DNA of 32,600 nucleotides, from positions 1 to 32,600 of IMG/VR virus record IMGVR_UViG_3300037502_001966; one strand, 5' to 3'. Both the position numbers and the translations under genes were made by a program. How positions within the stretch are numbered: position 1 is the stretch's first letter; each line of letters starts with the position of its first letter. The stretch is from a virus. Below, in pieces: positions 2,158-28,311 of the stretch. The notes beneath the pieces were generated by a model, which worked only from the letters and a program-made list of their open reading frames with translations, was not told the origin of the DNA and ran no database searches.

Positions 2158-2760
2158 ATGACGCTGTAAATGCTTCTAAGAATCTTAACTGCTCCTGCCA
2201 CGATTGCTTCTTTTTTGGTTCGCGCGGCATGAAGTCTTCTACTTTATATGGTAAACCTTTCGTTCTGTTGGCGTTGGCGATGACACAACATATAAGAGCC
2301 GAGTTGTATTGTTCGCGTTTTATTTTACGCTTAAAAGATTCATGTAAATAATAGTACTCTTTATATAGCAATCGCCACGCATCATTTGGGGCGATGTGCA
2401 TCTCGGCGACACACATCGCCCACAACTCAATGACGCGTGGCGCGGTTAGTTTTTTGTGTTAACTTCATTTTGCGACTCTGGCACATCGACCGAGTCTCCT
2501 ATGACTTTTGTCAACACTGTAGATATGTCACCTAAATTTTTAACCGTGATAAACTTTCCGACCTCTTCTGCAGAGAGAGTTGGATCTCCGTGCAGGAGGC
2601 ACGACCACAGCAGTGCGCGGATGTCTGTGGCTTTTATACCTGCATCACTATCGCCCACCGCAAACGCGCTCTTGCCCGTCAGCGACTCGTATGCGCACAT
2701 GGCGTTAAGGTCGTAGCGCAATTCACGTTCTTTGTCCAGATTGATAGTATACTTTTTCAT
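2141..2760 (-). CDS. Tail assembly chaperone, -1 frameshift product (gpGT-like)
   Basis: This is the predicted long product, about 206 residues. Ribosomes read 104 codons, slip back one base on A AAA AAC at 2449-2455, and continue from the CTA at 2449 for 102 more codons to the TAG at 2141. The T part has no convincing independent start: its first candidate is a TTG at 2425 without a Shine-Dalgarno. The -1 frame is open exactly from the heptamer. The T domain (for example the segment HIAPNDAWRLLYKEYYYLHE) resembles C-terminal extensions of tail chaperones. In lambda and many Gram-positive siphophages the G:GT ratio is fixed by such a shift. The frame and heptamer are seen directly; the shift itself is inferred from family knowledge. 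Confidence 0.85.
2446..2760 (-). CDS. Tail assembly chaperone, short form (gpG-like)
   Basis: This 104-residue protein lies between the major tail protein and the tape measure, the position of the lambda gpG-type chaperone that keeps the tape measure soluble and directs tube polymerisation onto it. The ATG at 2760 has a good GAGGTG Shine-Dalgarno five bases upstream. The sequence is helical and includes the segment YDLNAMCAYESLTGK, the kind of N-terminal motif seen in these small tail proteins. Its last codons contain the in-frame heptamer A AAA AAC directly before TAA, so most ribosomes should terminate here and a fraction should shift to make the longer product. No catalytic role is expected. 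Confidence 0.85.
   Translation of the reverse strand: MKKYTINLDKERELRYDLNAMCAYESLTGKSAFAVGDSDAGIKATDIRALLWSCLLHGDPTLSAEEVGKFITVKNLGDISTVLTKVIGDSVDVPESQNEVNTKN
2449..2455 (-). promoter_or_regulatory. Programmed -1 frameshift heptamer A AAA AAC (tail chaperone)
   Basis: The heptamer is in the correct phase (codons ACA AAA AAC) and the zero-frame stop TAA follows at once. Four or five bases downstream lies a small GC stem, CGCG-CCA-CGCG, and about 30 bases downstream a GGCGA...TCGCC hairpin; either could stimulate slippage. The heptamer is of the kind well documented for bacterial and phage -1 shifts. Confidence 0.85.
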
Positions 2761-5000: not shown

Positions 5001-5762
5001 TCACCTCCCTTGCTTTATAACCTTTGTTATATATGTTGATTGCTCTTTACGTAACGAATCTTCGTACTCCACAAGATCCTCGTGCCTGTATAAATGTTTA
5101 GCAGGATGATGAGTGTCCATATATATATTATACCCCGCGCATTGTGCTCGTATACAAAAGGCTCGGTCTTCCCACGTGCTCCACGACACGTTTGGGATGG
5201 AAGTGTACGTAACGCCGCTCTCAATAACGCTTCTGTGTATTAATATACAAGCCCCTGTATAACCTACCTTGTAAACAGATGGAGTGCGCCACTGATCCCA
5301 CTCTCCAGTATATTCATATCCATAGTGGTCGTACATCCATGCGTTCGGCATCTCGGGCTCTTGCGGTGTCCACCGTGTCCAAAATACCTCGGATATAATA
5401 TGCTTTCTATGATTAATTAATGTCACCAAAGTTTTAGGATGTAGAATTATATCGCTATCAACCAAAAAGAAATAGTCGTACTTTTCTGTCAATGCTTTAT
5501 GCAATAAATAGTTTTTCATGTTTACAACATCTTGTAAATTCTTAGCGCCCCAATGATGGGTAGAATCTTTGCGATAAGAAGTGTTGTTTGTATAATCTTC
5601 GTACTCGTGTGCCTGCAGTAGATCTTTCAACCCGCTAGAGTTATGCAGTATAAAGAATTTATCTACTTCGTATTCGTGTTCAAGAGAATTTAATGATGCC
5701 AAATAATGCTCAAAAACACGCACATCTTGATGCACTGGTGCTCCGATGAGTATACGGGTCAT
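5001..5762 (-). CDS. Glycosyltransferase-like protein, GT-A fold (second of pair)
   Basis: This 253-residue protein resembles GT-A (family 2-like) glycosyltransferases. It opens with MTRILIGAPVHQDVRVFEHY, the sugar-nucleotide binding strand and helix. A DXD-type motif (DSD, residues 102-104) follows the hydrophobic strand YDYFFLV, and would hold the divalent metal and nucleotide sugar. A later segment with GYTGACILIHRSV and WEDRAFCIRAQCAGY supplies the likely acceptor-side acidic residues (WED). Its ATG overlaps the stop of the first glycosyltransferase as ATGA. It is inserted between capsid and connector genes, so it probably modifies a virion protein or host surface glycan. Substrate cannot be told from sequence. 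Both enzymes appear full length. Confidence 0.75.
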   Translation of the reverse strand: MTRILIGAPVHQDVRVFEHYLASLNSLEHEYEVDKFFILHNSSGLKDLLQAHEYEDYTNNTSYRKDSTHHWGAKNLQDVVNMKNYLLHKALTEKYDYFFLVDSDIILHPKTLVTLINHRKHIISEVFWTRWTPQEPEMPNAWMYDHYGYEYTGEWDQWRTPSVYKVGYTGACILIHRSVIESGVTYTSIPNVSWSTWEDRAFCIRAQCAGYNIYMDTHHPAKHLYRHEDLVEYEDSLRKEQSTYITKVIKQGR

Positions 5763-6415
5763 GATGAATCGCCATCTTTTTTATTAGCATTATCAACTTC
5801 TTTTTTGTACTCTTCGTAAAAGTCTTGCTCGAATACTTCTTTATGCGCTAAATGACCAAACTGCAAGGTTGTGTCGCAAAACATTTTAACACCTGCGTTT
5901 TTTAATTTGTTACAGAAAGTCAGATCCTCCCCCACGTGAGGGAGTGGAAAAAAGTAAGGGGCGTTAATCTTCTCAAATGCTGATCGCTTTATTAATGCAC
6001 ACGCCAATCCTGCTCCTTCGATGGGCAACAGACCTTCGCCGTATCCCACTGGCGTTTCTAGGTAAGGAGGTTGATTGCTTCCTTCGTCAATATTTACCTT
6101 TGTATAAAAACAAGGCTGATAAGGCTTTACGCGCTTAAAAGCTTTTGCGGTCACGAATTCTTTATCGTGTTTAACTAAAAATTCAATGCTTTGCGGATGG
6201 AAGGTCATATCGCTGTCGATAAACATTAAGTACTCGCAATCGCTTTTTAAAAATTCGCTTGCTATATATTCTCTGGCATCATATACTAGCGAGCTTGATA
6301 TCATGGAGAATTCAAGTAATATATTCGTCCTGCGATTCGTCATGCGCATAAATGATTCAAAAACTTTAAATTCGATTGGTCGATGGATTGGCACTCCTAC
6401 CATGACTTTTGTCAT
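5759..6415 (-). CDS. Glycosyltransferase-like protein, GT-A fold (first of pair)
   Basis: This is a 218-residue GT-A-type glycosyltransferase. It begins MTKVMVGVPIHRPIEFKVFE, matching the opening of its downstream partner, so the two look like diverged paralogues. The metal-binding DSD is at residues 67-69 after EYLMFI. A GEDLTFCNKLKNAGVKMFCD stretch holds the likely catalytic acidic residue. The ATG at 6415 is preferred to an upstream GTG at 6424 because AGGGG lies eight bases before it. It follows its own promoter-like sequence and a long inverted repeat at 6452-6509. Likely a moron cassette for decorating the virion; the acceptor is unknown. Confidence 0.75.
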   Translation of the reverse strand: MTKVMVGVPIHRPIEFKVFESFMRMTNRRTNILLEFSMISSSLVYDAREYIASEFLKSDCEYLMFIDSDMTFHPQSIEFLVKHDKEFVTAKAFKRVKPYQPCFYTKVNIDEGSNQPPYLETPVGYGEGLLPIEGAGLACALIKRSAFEKINAPYFFPLPHVGEDLTFCNKLKNAGVKMFCDTTLQFGHLAHKEVFEQDFYEEYKKEVDNANKKDGDSS

Positions 6416-6442
6416 GAATAACACCCCTAATATGTTATTCCC

Positions 6443-9398: not shown

Positions 9399-10064
9399 TT
9401 AAGCCTCCCCGTCTGCGTACTCGTATCCTATAGTGCACCTGCAGTTGATCGACTGACTCGGCGGTAGTGACTGATCGCTTGGATATCGGGCGCGGAATCC
9501 TGCTACCGAGAAACTTTCATCTAGATTAATAGCTGGGTGGCTTAACATATTGCGATGTGAATCTCTTACATCGTCGTCGAGGGTCGGAATCCATATTTTT
9601 TTTAGTTTAGCAGATACTTGCTTCGCACCACTAAGCGATCCGTAATTTGACGCTCCCACGACCTCTGTGCGCGCAATAGTTCGCGACCTATTTGGTATAA
9701 TGTGTTCAAGGTATAAGTTATCAATCTTTTCCATCATTACAAGTATACTCGCACCCTCTGCGAGCGACTCGGACACAATCGCTTTGATGGCATTGCGCGT
9801 AGTTTCTGTGATTAATGACACTTTTTCAGCTGTTGTGTTGTCAATATAGCTTAATATTTCTTCCGTCCTAGCGTCATAGCTTTTTATGTTTGATGGCAAT
9901 AATGATTTACGTTTTCTGTTTATATCATCAAATACTTTTTTTCCGAATGTTTCTATTATTTCGGTATAGAAACCTTTAAACAGGGAAATAAAACTGTCGT
10001 AGTCGTCATTTATTGTGTTTAATATTTCGTTGTTCACATTGTCACTAGAGAAACTTGTGTCCAT
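9399..10064 (-). CDS. Minor head protein, MuF / SPP1 gp7-like (conventional start)
   Basis: The 221 residues from the ATG at 10064 contain the complete MuF core: RTIARTEVVGASNYGSLSGA, then KIWIPTLDDDVRDSHRNM and the C-terminal PSQSINCRCTIGYE with its Cys-Arg-Cys. Such proteins sit at the portal, enter the head in a few copies and may leave with DNA. The ATG has no Shine-Dalgarno and lies 44 bases after the portal stop, unlike nearly every other gene here. The same frame stays open another 39 codons upstream into the portal gene with no ATG, GTG or TTG. That fits production as a portal fusion by slippage rather than from this start. SPP1 gp7 is longer, which also hints at a missing N-terminus. 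Confidence 0.85.
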   Translation of the reverse strand: MDTSFSSDNVNNEILNTINDDYDSFISLFKGFYTEIIETFGKKVFDDINRKRKSLLPSNIKSYDARTEEILSYIDNTTAEKVSLITETTRNAIKAIVSESLAEGASILVMMEKIDNLYLEHIIPNRSRTIARTEVVGASNYGSLSGAKQVSAKLKKIWIPTLDDDVRDSHRNMLSHPAINLDESFSVAGFRARYPSDQSLPPSQSINCRCTIGYEYADGEA

Positions 10065-11404
10065 TATCTTTTTACGCTGTTTACCAAAAGCTGCTTGTAT
10101 TTTTTGGTTTACGTCATTATAAAACTTTGCTCGCTCTCGCTCAACGCGTTGGAATAGTTTTTTTTTACCTCTAAACCGTCATGGTTGTTTGTTGTTTCTA
10201 GATTCAAACTTTTTTGTTGTATATCCGATGTGTCGATAGATATTTGCATGTCTGTGATAAATATATCTCCATCGGTCGTTTCGTCGTACTCTAGGGCAAA
10301 TCGAGCTTCGTTTCGTTTTATCAGTCCACTTTTCCATAGGTTTATTGTTCGTGTCGCTAAAGAGTCTTGACCCTCACGCAGCGCTGATATACCACTGATG
10401 TCGTAAGCCAAGACCAGCGAGTCGCCATACCTTGGTAGCAGATCGCTTGACAATTTATCTTTAATGTGTTCAAGATATCGCGGTATTACTGTGTTTTCCC
10501 AAAAACTTTTAACGGCTTCACTAAAGTTTGAATACGTTTGTCCGTCGGGATCACCCACGAGTTGGGATGGCACGCCAAAAGCGGAACATATTTCAGTTCG
10601 GTTAACCTTTCTCTGTGCTAAAAAGTCCATATCAACGGATGATAGTCCGAGTTGTTGATATTGCGCGCGATCCGCGTTGAGGACGAGTGGCACGCGTGCG
10701 TTCTTTGACCCTCCATACCTTTTGCGCCATTCATCACGTAGGTTGTCAATTAATTCTGGCGATGGATTGATTACGCTAAGCATTCCTGCTGGCACGCCTG
10801 CGTTTTGCAAAGTCGCTTTGTTCCAATCGACAGCTTCGTTTTCCGTGTCAATGGTTCGGGACAAGGCTTTTATTGGTGACAATCCTTCGTATATATCATC
10901 AGGGTTGTTAAACTTTGACCACAATATTTCTTCTTTTTGGTAATATATTGGTTTGTGCATTTCATACTTAAACCCACTAACAAACCCTTCCTTGCTAGGG
11001 ATTGGCTTGGTGTAGTGGGGGTATAACGGCACGATCTCTCGCGGTGCTGTGGGATTTATATACTCTGCAAAAAATTTACCTTCAATCGCTAAATATGTCG
11101 CCCATAAATCAATGAAATCCCTGCCGCTCATAAAGCTATTGGCTTTAACATTTAACATGTCAAGTATTGGGTGTTGCTCTACTTCGATTAGCCTTCCTGC
11201 GCGCCCTCGTCTGTATAACAGCCACGGCACGGATGATACCGATGATGAGATCTGCATCACACACGAGTATACCCAGACGACTTTGCTGTGTGCTTCTGTG
11301 ATGTACTGTCTATCTTTCTGCGTTGACCAGTAAGGCTGATTATAATTTCCGTCGGCAACAAACTGGTATTTCTGTTTTTTTACGAATCGATCCCAAAACT
11401 TCAC
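9399..11404 (-). CDS. Predicted portal-MuF fusion made by -1 slippage
   Basis: Reading the portal frame to A AAA AAC (10157-10163) and slipping back one base continues at the CTA at 10157. The ribosome then reads 252 codons without a stop through to the MuF end at 9399, for a product of about 668 residues. The extra junction peptide begins LFQRVERERAKFYNDVNQKI and looks like an ordinary amphipathic helix rather than out-of-frame noise. Portal proteins fused to MuF domains are known in other phages, so the product makes structural sense: a few fused subunits in the portal ring would dock minor protein at the vertex. Alternatives are RNA polymerase slippage on A9, or a one-base assembly error that splits a normal fused gene. 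Confidence 0.5.
10109..11404 (-). CDS. Portal protein, HK97 type
   Basis: This 431-residue protein should form the dodecameric portal through which DNA is packaged. It shows the HK97-family order: an N-terminal wing with VVWVYSCVMQISSSVSSVPW, then EVEQHPILDMLNVKANSFMS, the clip region, and the stem/crown region with LAQRKVNRTEICSAFGVPSQ and LVGDPDGQTYSNFSEAVKSF. The GTG start at 11404 has GGAGG ten bases upstream. It is 18 bases after the large terminase, as expected. The last 16 residues after the A9 tract form a separate zero-frame tail; the -1 frame at that point leads into the MuF gene. Confidence 0.93.
   Translation of the reverse strand: MKFWDRFVKKQKYQFVADGNYNQPYWSTQKDRQYITEAHSKVVWVYSCVMQISSSVSSVPWLLYRRGRAGRLIEVEQHPILDMLNVKANSFMSGRDFIDLWATYLAIEGKFFAEYINPTAPREIVPLYPHYTKPIPSKEGFVSGFKYEMHKPIYYQKEEILWSKFNNPDDIYEGLSPIKALSRTIDTENEAVDWNKATLQNAGVPAGMLSVINPSPELIDNLRDEWRKRYGGSKNARVPLVLNADRAQYQQLGLSSVDMDFLAQRKVNRTEICSAFGVPSQLVGDPDGQTYSNFSEAVKSFWENTVIPRYLEHIKDKLSSDLLPRYGDSLVLAYDISGISALREGQDSLATRTINLWKSGLIKRNEARFALEYDETTDGDIFITDMQISIDTSDIQQKSLNLETTNNHDGLEVKKNYSNALSESEQSFIMT
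10157..10166 (-). promoter_or_regulatory. Slippery A9-C tract with A AAA AAC heptamer at the portal end
   Basis: On the coding strand nine A and then C are read in the portal frame as GTA AAA AAA AAC, so the heptamer A AAA AAC (10157-10163) is in phase. An AGAGG sequence lies three bases before the tract. A 10-base palindrome, CAACGCGTTG, starts six bases after the heptamer and could contribute structure. A9 tracts are also known to cause RNA polymerase slippage, so the mechanism could be transcriptional. Confidence 0.6.
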
Positions 11405-15474: not shown

Positions 15475-17859
15475 TCACACACACGAAAAGCCGTTGACGT
15501 GCCCGTACTCTGCTCCGATGCGCTTTTTTGCGTTTTTCCATCCTAAAAATTTAAGACTATTACGTATTTCTATCGCCCGATCTTTCGGCGGCGTGATGCT
15601 TAACTCGCAAAAGCATTCGCGCCATATCTCTATTACCGAGATAAACTGTCGTTTGTGCAGGTGATCTGGCTGTGGCGACCTCATACGCCGTACCCGATCA
15701 TCCACTGACAGCATGTACCAGTGATCCGAGATCGGACGGCTCAAAAACTCCTTAATAACAGAAACGAGTTCAGGCTCGGCTGTATGTGCACTTTGTGTTT
15801 CGCGCGCCACCGTGTCAAGATCTTGCGGCAAGTACAGCGGCTCTCCCGCTCGATAGTAGCTTACAGCCTCTGCCCATATCTGACCCACGGTGTAGTCGTC
15901 GAGGTCAAAAACGCTTTTCGCGCTTTTTTCGCCGCAAGCAATTGGCAAAAAACGTCTATTGCCCGTAGGATCGGACAGAAACGAAAAGTCATTAGTGGTA
16001 GCAATAAAAATATTTTGCCTTGGGAAGTCCATTTCGCGCCTTGCGTACTTAGGTCTGTATCTGTCGACCTGTTTACTCAAAAACATTTTAACTACATTTA
16101 TCCTCGCGCGCTCTTTTGCACTCATTTCGGCAATCTCCACGATCCACGTACCGCGCAACGCCATCATTGCAGGCTCACCCTCAAGGCTGACCAGACTATC
16201 ACTATACCAAGATCTCCCAAGCTTGCGCAAAAAAGTAGACTTGCCAATGCCTTGCGCACCGAGCAGCGACACAACGGAGTCGTACTTGCACCCTGCGTCA
16301 TACGCCCTTGCAACCCCTGCGCATAGCATTTTACGCGTCACCGCTCTAGTATACGGAGTGTCGCACGCGCCGAGATAGTCGATCAACGCTGTATCAACTC
16401 TTTTTACGCCATCCCAGTTTAATGCCGATAAATAATCTTGTATTGGGTGATATTTTATTTCGCTGACTATTTTTTCCACCGCGATATCGAGCTTCTCCCG
16501 ACAATAAACACTATATATACGCTCTATATACCCCGCAAGAAGCTTATCGTCTGCGTCCGTCCATGATAGGCTGTGACGATCCCATGGCAACGACTTTTTG
16601 CCATAAATTGATTGATCAAATGAATTATATACAATATTGCCTTTCAAGTTCGGGTCATTTTTTAGTATTAAGTAAAAATTCTCAACACTCTTAACTATTG
16701 CGCCCGTTTTACCGTCGCGAGCTAGATCGTGTATCCAAGACAGGTCACTACTAGAGGTGTCCGATGTCGCCGCCTCTTCGGCGCGCATGACGAGCGGGTC
16801 AGACTCACATAGCAGTGCCATGCGTGCAGTACTGGCTCGATGATGTACAGGCGCGGTATAGTCATCATCGGATCCGTATAAGTGCGTGCGCACAAGGTCA
16901 TAAGCGTTGACCGCATGTCCTGTGCCTACAGGATCGCTAGCATGGTGGCTGTAACATAGATTCGCATCATTAAATACATACAACCCACCTGCGGTTGATC
17001 CATCAATGTACGTATACCGATCACCACTACTACCGTGCGGTGTATATATGTGCGGTAAAAACTTTTCTATCGCCTCATGAATTGTGTACGCTCTGCAAAA
17101 TTGACCTATTAAACCACTTTTGTTTTCAGGACCAACATTTTGTACGGCGGAAGTTTTTTCGCGTGTTTTTTGCTTGATAATATCGTTTGTTTTACCCTTT
17201 ACACCACTAGTCATCAATATGCTTTGATACTCGCGCAAATAATCATCGGCGCATAAAAAGTTGCCGTCATAAAATTTTACGAAATATTCCCCGTCAATGC
17301 TGCATGATGGAAAGTACATTAACCTTTCATACTCAAAAGTTTTTGTATCAAAAAATTCCGCACCTATTTTATGCGCTAAATATCTAGCGACGATATTATA
17401 CTCGCCCTTGCTCACGGGTCGGTCCACGGGCACGATGATACGGTATCGCCCACTAGATCGCATATGCTTGCGAGTCGTATGCACGATGGCACATACACCA
17501 TGCAGTCGCTCACTCACCAGACTCATGATATCCACGCCGCCTGCATGGTCAACGTCAAGTGTAACGATCTGCCGATCCACTACCGCTCCGACTTGCCTTA
17601 CGCCTCCTGTGCATACTCCCCCGACATATCCACCAACGTCTTTCAACTCATCCTGCTTTTCTTTTGGCATGGTTAAATATTCCGCTACAGTTTCAGGCGT
17701 ACGCGTTGGCTCTGAAAAACGTTTACAAAATCCTTCCCACGTGTCGCGTTCGTTGATCCAATAAGTTGTTCGCCGCGCAAAGTTTTTGCCGCTATGTGCG
17801 AAACTGATCAAGGCTTTTATGCCCTGATCAGTTCCTTTCGTGCTAATAATATTTTCCAT
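15475..17859 (-). CDS. Primase / VapE-type replicative helicase
   Basis: This 794-residue two-part replication protein has an N-terminal primase-polymerase-like domain, with catalytic acids in LDVDHAGG (Asp102, Asp104) and the strand RYRIIVPVDRPVS near 138-150. From about residue 450 comes the virulence-associated-E helicase domain (NWDGVKRVDT, SLLGAQGIGKST), with Walker A at 534-542. WIVEIAE at 572-578 is Walker B-like, ATTND at ~620-624 is sensor 1 and NRRF at 634-637 an Arg finger. It probably opens the origin, unwinds and primes DNA for the host polymerase, since no phage polymerase is seen. Start at the ATG at 17859 with GGAGG six bases upstream. The stop is followed by a strong terminator and iteron element IR-L. 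Confidence 0.92.
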   Translation of the reverse strand: MENIISTKGTDQGIKALISFAHSGKNFARRTTYWINERDTWEGFCKRFSEPTRTPETVAEYLTMPKEKQDELKDVGGYVGGVCTGGVRQVGAVVDRQIVTLDVDHAGGVDIMSLVSERLHGVCAIVHTTRKHMRSSGRYRIIVPVDRPVSKGEYNIVARYLAHKIGAEFFDTKTFEYERLMYFPSCSIDGEYFVKFYDGNFLCADDYLREYQSILMTSGVKGKTNDIIKQKTREKTSAVQNVGPENKSGLIGQFCRAYTIHEAIEKFLPHIYTPHGSSGDRYTYIDGSTAGGLYVFNDANLCYSHHASDPVGTGHAVNAYDLVRTHLYGSDDDYTAPVHHRASTARMALLCESDPLVMRAEEAATSDTSSSDLSWIHDLARDGKTGAIVKSVENFYLILKNDPNLKGNIVYNSFDQSIYGKKSLPWDRHSLSWTDADDKLLAGYIERIYSVYCREKLDIAVEKIVSEIKYHPIQDYLSALNWDGVKRVDTALIDYLGACDTPYTRAVTRKMLCAGVARAYDAGCKYDSVVSLLGAQGIGKSTFLRKLGRSWYSDSLVSLEGEPAMMALRGTWIVEIAEMSAKERARINVVKMFLSKQVDRYRPKYARREMDFPRQNIFIATTNDFSFLSDPTGNRRFLPIACGEKSAKSVFDLDDYTVGQIWAEAVSYYRAGEPLYLPQDLDTVARETQSAHTAEPELVSVIKEFLSRPISDHWYMLSVDDRVRRMRSPQPDHLHKRQFISVIEIWRECFCELSITPPKDRAIEIRNSLKFLGWKNAKKRIGAEYGHVNGFSCV

Positions 17860-27126: not shown

Positions 27127-28311
27127 TTAAATCGTCACCGATCCTTTTTTGTATTTTATATAACCCGTAGTTGGTGTTACGAAATTTAATGTAGTTTGCG
27201 ATCCGACAGTTGTTTCTGTTGTCGCTGGCGAGAATTGATATTTCGATCCAACTGGAATTGTGATCGGCGGCGAAAGCAAAGCATATGCGTTGACAACGGA
27301 GCTTGATACACCTGAAGAATTTAACCCACCACCAAAAAGCGCATAATTCCCTACGGTCGTTGCGCTTAATTGCCTTATTGCCAAACTAAGTTCAGCAGGT
27401 GTTGTACGCACTAAACTGGTATCATATGCATCGACAGTTGATCTATATGCCCCATCAAACCCACCGCCAAAAAGAGCATAGTTTCCAACGCTTGTAGCGG
27501 TTAAAATATATCGCGCAACGCTTAACGCCGTAGGTGTTGTACGTACTAAACTTGTATCGTAAGCATCAACAACCGCACTGTTAACACTACCACTACCAAA
27601 CCCGCCACCAAAAAGGGCATAATTTCCGACTTTTGTTGCTGCAAAACGACTTCGCGCAACGCTTAACGCCGTAGGTGTTGTACGCACTAAACTGGTGTCG
27701 TACGCATCAACTGCTGCGCTTGCACTTCCTGTATCGCCGCCACCAAAAAGGGCATAATTCCCAACGCTTGTGGCGGCTAGAAATTCACGCGCAACGCTTA
27801 ACGCCGTAGGTGTTGTACGAACTAAACTGGTGTCGTAAGCATCGACTACTGCACTTACACTGCCTGTAGTACCGCCGCCAAAAAGAGCATAATTCCCAAC
27901 GTTTGTCGCTGCTAAGTATTGCCGCCCTACACTTAACGCCGTAGGTGTTGTACGCACTAAACTAGTATCATAGGCATCGACTACTGCACTGTAAACACCA
28001 CCACCAAACCCGCCGCCAAAAAGGGCATAGTTCCCAACCTTCGCTGCTGATAACCCAAACCTCGCAACACTTAACGCCGTAGGTGTTGTACGTACTAAAC
28101 TTGTGTCGTACGCATCGACCACAGCGCTGCTAACACCACTAGACAAACCGCCGCCAAAAAGGGCGTAATTTCCAACGCTTGTGGCAGCATTTCTTTCTTG
28201 TGAAACGCTTAGTGCTGTTGGATTTGGCGATGTCCTTACTAGCGTGCCAGTGGAAAGAGTGTAGTCAACTCTCGTCAATCCACCGCCGATATTTGTTCTC
28301 CCGCTACCCAT
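27127..28311 (-). CDS. Kelch-like seven-repeat beta-propeller, probable receptor-binding protein
   Basis: This 394-residue protein is built of seven VGNYALFGGG units, 45-47 residues apart. Each is followed by VDAYDTSLVRTTPTALSVAR, the Kelch-type pattern of a Gly-Gly turn and repeated Tyr/Asp/Val. The N-terminal TLSTGTLVRTSPNPTALSV supplies an extra strand set that can close the ring with the last unit, so one seven-bladed propeller is likely. The C-terminal region (ITIPVGSKYQFSP onward) looks like a small beta domain for attachment. ATG at 28311 with GGAGG six bases upstream. It lies among tail-tip genes, so it is expected to bind a surface sugar or protein. The loops between GGG and VDAYD vary most. 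Confidence 0.85.
   Translation of the reverse strand: MGSGRTNIGGGLTRVDYTLSTGTLVRTSPNPTALSVSQERNAATSVGNYALFGGGLSSGVSSAVVDAYDTSLVRTTPTALSVARFGLSAAKVGNYALFGGGFGGGVYSAVVDAYDTSLVRTTPTALSVGRQYLAATNVGNYALFGGGTTGSVSAVVDAYDTSLVRTTPTALSVAREFLAATSVGNYALFGGGDTGSASAAVDAYDTSLVRTTPTALSVARSRFAATKVGNYALFGGGFGSGSVNSAVVDAYDTSLVRTTPTALSVARYILTATSVGNYALFGGGFDGAYRSTVDAYDTSLVRTTPAELSLAIRQLSATTVGNYALFGGGLNSSGVSSSVVNAYALLSPPITIPVGSKYQFSPATTETTVGSQTTLNFVTPTTGYIKYKKGSVTI
27341..28172 (-). repeat. Coding tandem repeats of the propeller, 135-141 bp x 7
   Basis: The codons for VGNYALFGGG recur starting (plus-strand core gcataa or close variants) at 27341, 27476, 27617, 27752, 27887, 28025 and 28163, spacings 135, 141, 135, 135, 138 and 138. 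Middle copies are almost identical in DNA (the VRTTPTALSV part especially), which would allow recombination to change blade number or shuffle loops. Size differences fall in multiples of three, all in frame. Confidence 0.9.

Follow-up and report, generated by a model that had tools for sequence, protein, structure and literature searches.

How the MuF head protein of a phage is produced when its reading frame has no evident start codon at its head is the question raised by a 32,600-nucleotide (nt) stretch of viral DNA (IMG/VR record IMGVR_UViG_3300037502_001966, positions 1 to 32,600; hereafter the window). A portal gene on its minus strand is followed by a MuF (SPP1 gp7-like) frame displaced by -1 (Table 1), and an initial reading based on the DNA alone (the sequence-only reading) had predicted that -1 slippage joins the two into a portal-MuF fusion. 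Comparative analysis supports this prediction: portal and portal-MuF are very probably products of one cistron via slippage, and the slip appears to recur family-wide, in both polarities.

The portal belongs to the HK97 type by domain (PF04860) as well as by fold, with its model matching the solved portals of a gene transfer agent (GTA; 6toa, E 8e-20) and HK97 (8cez, E 4e-19) in Foldseek. A MuF domain beside the portal is the arrangement expected of SPP1 gp7-like head proteins. The MuF region also matches positions 472-710 of the portal family phrog_2662, while a Foldseek search of the MuF model against the PDB gave no significant match. Near its 3' end the portal frame reads GTA AAA AAA AAC, and the run of nine A's (A9) contains 2 in-phase heptamers, A AAA AAA (10166-10160) and A AAA AAC (10163-10157). 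The zero frame stops at TAA (10111-10109), 16 codons past AAC. From the run onwards, the -1 frame reads KKKLFQRVERERAKFYNDVNQKIQAAFGKQRKKI-M... and is uninterrupted up to the MuF stop (9399-9401). Its first ATG, GTG or TTG is the ATG at 10064, which lies 44 nt past the portal stop and has no Shine-Dalgarno (SD) sequence before it; by contrast, the ATG of the following gene, at 9399, is an ordinary SD-led start. The observations on which the sequence-only reading relied (the in-phase heptamer, the open -1 frame lacking an early start, and the position and missing SD of the ATG) were all verified, and its estimate of approximately 668 residues for the fusion agrees with a predicted product of 668 amino acids (aa) and 76.3 kDa. 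Portal residues 386-431 are mostly of low confidence in the predicted structure; this zero-frame tail is probably disordered, and the slip site would therefore sit in a flexible linker after the portal core. The genes of the window contain approximately 60 in-phase slippery heptamers, and a -1 frame of at least about 100 codons follows just 2 of them, in the portal and in the tail chaperone. The chaperone has the same in-phase A AAA AAC, as had been pointed out, with a 102-codon -1 frame.

A single-sequence MuF scan of viral contigs returned no relative, and alignments were required to find them. The close relatives obtained from the viral-contig scans comprise 17 distinct junctions of the window's clade, on assembled contigs from approximately 20 metagenomes. 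In every one of them A9C is in the same phase, MuF lies in the -1 frame and a usable early start is absent; the in-phase X XXY YYZ heptamer that characterises -1 ribosomal frameshifting is present in the window and in each of them, and the run is uniformly A9 in these assemblies. The zero-frame portal stop is found at the same place throughout (17/17), as TAA, TAG or TGA; where measured (16 sequences), slip and stop are 58 nt apart without any indel. The wobble A is retained with Gly, Ala and Val codons alike. Most relatives have no ATG, GTG or TTG in the -1 frame until at least 40 codons past the slip, within MuF, and the Met encoded at 10064 aligns to K, E or N, so that on these alignments ATG 10064 is an internal Met and not a conserved start.

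Selection was assessed as the ratio of nonsynonymous to synonymous differences per site (Nei-Gojobori counts, uncorrected, 16 sequences). The overlap stretch gives 0.29 in the -1 frame versus 1.46 in the zero frame, and the segment from the portal stop to the ATG position gives 0.22 versus 1.16. A ratio obtained for the portal core was disregarded, indels between the sequences having made it invalid. Four-fold degenerate portal sites, compared between representatives, are 72-82% identical in the overlap versus 41% over most of the gene. By these measures purifying selection acts on the -1 peptide as protein, and a conserved, start-less -1 open reading frame selected at the protein level is what -1 frameshifting predicts. 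The earlier concern that the open stretch could be a chance event ("one in seven") can be dropped, given 17/17 junctions with an open -1 frame, A9C and no start, and given the purifying selection on that frame. A search for single-frame fusions, proposed in the sequence-only reading, showed that the -1 peptide aligns with the linker in phages GBK2 and Silence, whose portal-MuF proteins are single-frame; likewise, the last 240 positions of the 717-position portal family PHROG 2662 match MuF. In an AlphaFold2 model based on 44 sequences, residues 2-36 form one helix with block predicted local distance difference test (pLDDT) values of 91-98 (95-98 for the -1 peptide), and the MuF fold has a mean of 94.2. 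In this model the -1 peptide forms the first MuF helix, which a start at ATG 10064 (residue 35 of the model) would delete. The supposition that the junction peptide is real protein is therefore borne out by selection, linker homology and the modelled helix.

To see how far the arrangement extends, the junction was examined in every portal-MuF pair retrieved. Split genes on other runs are found in L055 (AAT TTT TTT TTA; nine T's, T9), L060 (CGT TTT TTT; T7), L231 (GAT TTT TTT; T7) and L136 (GCT AAA AAA AAA; A9). Many single-frame fusions also have a run at the junction: A10 in the window's sister clade (the L034 to L046 group, L118, L133 and L135) and in L050; A9 in L043, L047, L112, L198 and L243; T9 in GBK2, Silence, L063, L137 and L161; T10 in L052 and L054; and T7 in L056 and L144-L150. 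In a quick maximum-likelihood tree, which includes long branches, a 33-row clade (support 100) has A runs throughout, with 16 split and 17 fused members, and an 11-row clade (support 86) has T runs throughout, with 2 split members nested among fused ones; the more distant fused relatives are mostly without a junction run. The codon before the run varies (Gly, Ala, Val, Leu and Ile; before T runs Asn, Ser, Asp, His and Arg), its third base usually being part of the run. A/T runs of at least 9 number 38 in 12.8 kb at the junction versus 7 in 282 kb elsewhere, an approximately 119-fold higher density that shows how local the runs are and is not a test, as the loci were chosen for having a run. 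In fused lineages, a -1 slip would reach a stop within 0-11 codons and so yield a short portal. Taken across these alignments, it is the slippery junction itself that is conserved, in both polarities and through changes of base, length and polarity.

Some loci lie outside this pattern. In the distant relatives L199, L213 and L254, portal and MuF are truly separate genes whose overlapping starts are SD-led. Split loci such as L230 and L255 were not counted among the slip lineages, as ordinary start codons are available there, and L211 has no early MuF start and no convincing heptamer. L180 has split portal and MuF genes with C CCT TTT directly followed by TAG and no early MuF start; this may be a comparable slip site without a homopolymer. 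Among the distant phages L174-L177, which have a portal gene and a MuF-like gene, the 3 examined showed no slippery run. No cultured host with the split form was found among bacterial genomes (GTDB contigs; 399 genomes of the class of Domibacillus), where the portal-MuF copies read were fused or without a slippery run. In the L034-L046 group, L118, L133 and L135, a stretch of approximately 190 aa separates the portal core from MuF in the single-frame fusions, mostly after A10.

The slipping agent may be the ribosome or RNA polymerase. We consider a ribosomal -1 slip somewhat the likelier, with polymerase slippage a substantial but lesser possibility and a contribution of both improbable. Of 19 lineages, which are partly related, 15 have the run in slippery phase (p 6e-5 versus one third), and this bias persists among runs of at least 9 alone (11/15, p 0.002). 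Runs of seven T's are too short for usual polymerase slippage, and all 4 T7 lineages (L056, L060, L144 and L231) are in slippery phase. The tail chaperone of the same phage has its A AAA AAC in a run of A6 only.

Several observations weigh against our interpretation. We found no conserved downstream structure, with z-scores near zero in most sequences (pseudoknots were not searched for), and no conserved SD-like stimulator at the usual distance upstream; the ribosomal form is therefore weakened, although such stimulators are common rather than universal in -1 ribosomal frameshifting. A AAA AAC is weak on Escherichia coli ribosomes compared to A AAA AAG (PMC5009743). Runs of A9-A10 and T9-T10 suit RNA polymerase slippage, and the wobble A or T is kept though one heptamer needs none. 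Off-frame stops in fused lineages come no earlier than background (Fisher p 0.07, -1 and +1), so that for the reverse-polarity half the evidence is retention of the run, and sequences inside a clade are not independent.

If RNA polymerase slips, part of the portal mRNA would have ten A's and ordinary translation would give the fusion, as for dnaX of Thermus thermophilus, where slippage occurs on nine T's (PMC5009743). An A/T run of about 9 or more is indeed present at the junction (A9 in the window's clade; A10, T9 or T10 elsewhere), apart from the 4 lineages with T7 only. The window's clade has exactly A9 and its sister A10, the wobble A is kept across Gly, Ala, Val, Leu and Ile codons, A and T runs interchange, and no ribosomal stimulator was seen. 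Against this explanation stand the slippery phase of the short T7 runs and the phase bias among the longer ones, and L009, L043 and L137/L161 reach an early stop in -1 only, not in +1. A ribosomal slip remains somewhat preferred.

Could MuF instead be an ordinary separate gene with its start at ATG 10064, translation perhaps re-initiating once the portal has been read? The window does have this in-frame ATG 44 nt past the stop, and SD-led overlapping pairs occur in the 3 distant relatives mentioned above. However, the ATG has no SD, is missing from all close relatives and would cost MuF its first helix, and the peptide upstream of it is under purifying selection; we regard a separate gene as very unlikely. 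Slightly less probable still is phase variation, in which replication slippage in the run would toggle individual phages between fused and split states. Polarity has changed between lineages via run length or phase, but there is no A8 or A10 in the 17 split junctions and no A9 in the 11 sequences of the A10 clade, and different metagenomes yield identical junctions; in the assembled contigs the run lacks the length variability of a phase-variable locus. Finally, although homopolymers are error-prone and the sister clade is A10 and fused, a sequencing or assembly error hiding a true A10 and a plain fused gene, the other concern raised at the outset, is rejected as scarcely credible given A9 in some 20 assemblies, a zero-frame stop held in place through 3 different stop codons, and an adjacent A10 clade that reads as A10 and therefore argues against a systematic loss of run length. 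Of the findings that the sequence-only reading named as refuting its prediction, A10 in place of A9 and a conserved start at 10064 were looked for in the close relatives, and neither was seen.

We therefore return to slippage within one cistron. Normal reading would yield the 431-aa portal, and slippage by -1 at A9C, within the disordered linker that follows the portal core, would yield the 668-aa fusion. With no start of its own, MuF would be obtainable only as part of this fusion. Both forms could then co-assemble in the dodecameric portal ring, a few subunits carrying MuF into the head interior, which the C-terminal side of HK97-type portals faces. If the slip occurs with a frequency between a few and some tens of percent, each ring of twelve subunits would have a few MuF domains covalently attached on that side. 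Such a mixed ring would match the few copies seen of MuF where it is free-standing, as SPP1 gp7 is present at one to two copies per capsid (PMC5576092, PMC6316719). In lineages with joined frames, the same slip would give a short portal from a fused gene.

MuF is not always the end of the protein. In the close relatives L018 (1675-3105) and L019 (1426-2886; both plus strand) it runs on into a papain-fold glutamine deamidase domain (PF15644, E 2.6e-16 and 3.4e-12), an arrangement also known from MuF polymorphic toxins (PMC5576092). The relatives L002, L005 and L024 have long MuF C-terminal extensions with no recognised effector domain, and the MuF of the window has none. Because MuF of L018 and L019 continues into the deamidase domain, the slip there would also meter effector copies. 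The broader proposal is a family-wide, polarity-switching recoding module that sets the number of ring subunits with covalent MuF and, in L018 and L019, also the number of effector copies tethered for delivery into the next host cell; for this we see about as much for as against.

Several known systems come close to this scheme. Geobacillus phage GBK2, Bacillus phage Silence and PHROG 2662 have the same domains in the same order, a homologous linker helix and an HK97-type portal, and the 2 phages also have T9 at the junction; there, however, the fusion is in the zero frame, whereas in the window a -1 slip is required for it and zero-frame reading yields the short portal. The dnaX gene (tau/gamma) likewise makes proteins of 2 lengths via a slippery run between N-terminal and C-terminal domains. 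Its slip is ribosomal -1 in E. coli, reversed in a few bacteria, and transcriptional in T. thermophilus, showing that polarity and mechanism interchange between homologues (PMC5009743). Unlike dnaX, an unrelated protein, the present case concerns a phage structural ring protein, and no stimulatory SD or stem-loop was found. The G/GT tail chaperones of tailed phages also involve a structural gene with a -1 slip close to its 3' end, at A AAA AAC (AAAAAAC in phiCbK), but these are other genes, and the portal site is A9 rather than A6. Programmed slippage in the major head protein of phage A2 (PMC5009743, reference 145) and in SPP1 gp17.1* (3:1 ratio) gives a low-abundance, C-terminally extended virion subunit; in contrast to the portal, these are coat or tail-tube subunits, and no separate head protein such as MuF is attached. 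In SPP1 itself, MuF (gp7) is bound to the portal (gp6) at low copy inside the head, as proposed here, but the 2 proteins are encoded by separate genes and associate non-covalently. A slip in a portal gene or portal-MuF pair was not found described in the open-access papers searched, where the frameshifts concern tail chaperones, coat and tail-tube proteins and dnaX.

The usual view of a portal ring is one of twelve identical subunits. If our interpretation is correct, mixed rings are predicted in a broad phage group, and the low copy number of MuF would have a genetic explanation. Since the run is conserved in both fused and split genes, the ratio of the 2 forms, and not merely the presence of MuF, would be under selection, a claim open to testing in phages available in culture, GBK2 and Silence among them. 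There is also a caution for annotation: the split form can be taken for 2 genes with a start missing, and a second product is concealed in the fused form.

Table 1. Features of the portal-MuF locus and of the tail chaperone gene in the window.
Feature	Position	Strand	Details
Portal gene, zero frame	10109..11404	-	GTG start, 431 aa, 49 kDa; PF04860 E 5.7e-65; HK97/GTA-type
Slippery site GTA AAA AAA AAC	10157..10168	-	Portal codons 413-416; A9 run 10166-10158
Dual-coded stretch	10109..10156	-	Zero-frame tail YSNALSESEQSFIMT then stop; -1 frame LFQRVERERAKFYNDV
-1-frame-only segment, portal stop to ATG 10064	10065..10108	-	Second half of modelled MuF helix 1 (NQKIQAAFGKQRKKI)
Rest of MuF (SPP1 gp7-like) domain, -1 frame	9399..10064	-	PF04233 E 1.6e-9; phrog_2468 E 4.5e-43
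Next gene, approximately 210 aa	8770..9399	-	Likely start ATG 9399 behind GGGGAGG
Tail chaperone, gpG-like	2446..2760	-	phrog_2115; in-phase A AAA AAC, only A6

Elsewhere in the window, the heptamer of the tail chaperone lies one codon before the stop and opens its -1 extension over 2425-2141, the classic G/GT layout. No family match was found for the gene that follows MuF. A large gene at 15475-17859 (minus strand, 794 aa) has an in-phase A AAA AAG 16 codons before its stop that opens a 49-codon -1 tail. Between the major capsid and head-completion genes, 2 overlapping genes (5001-6424, minus strand) are glycosyltransferase-like by eye. The gene at 27127-28311 (minus strand) encodes approximately 7 repeats of approximately 48 aa (SVGNYALFGGG...VDAYDTSLVRTTPTALSVAR) and is perhaps a kelch-like beta-propeller tail protein.
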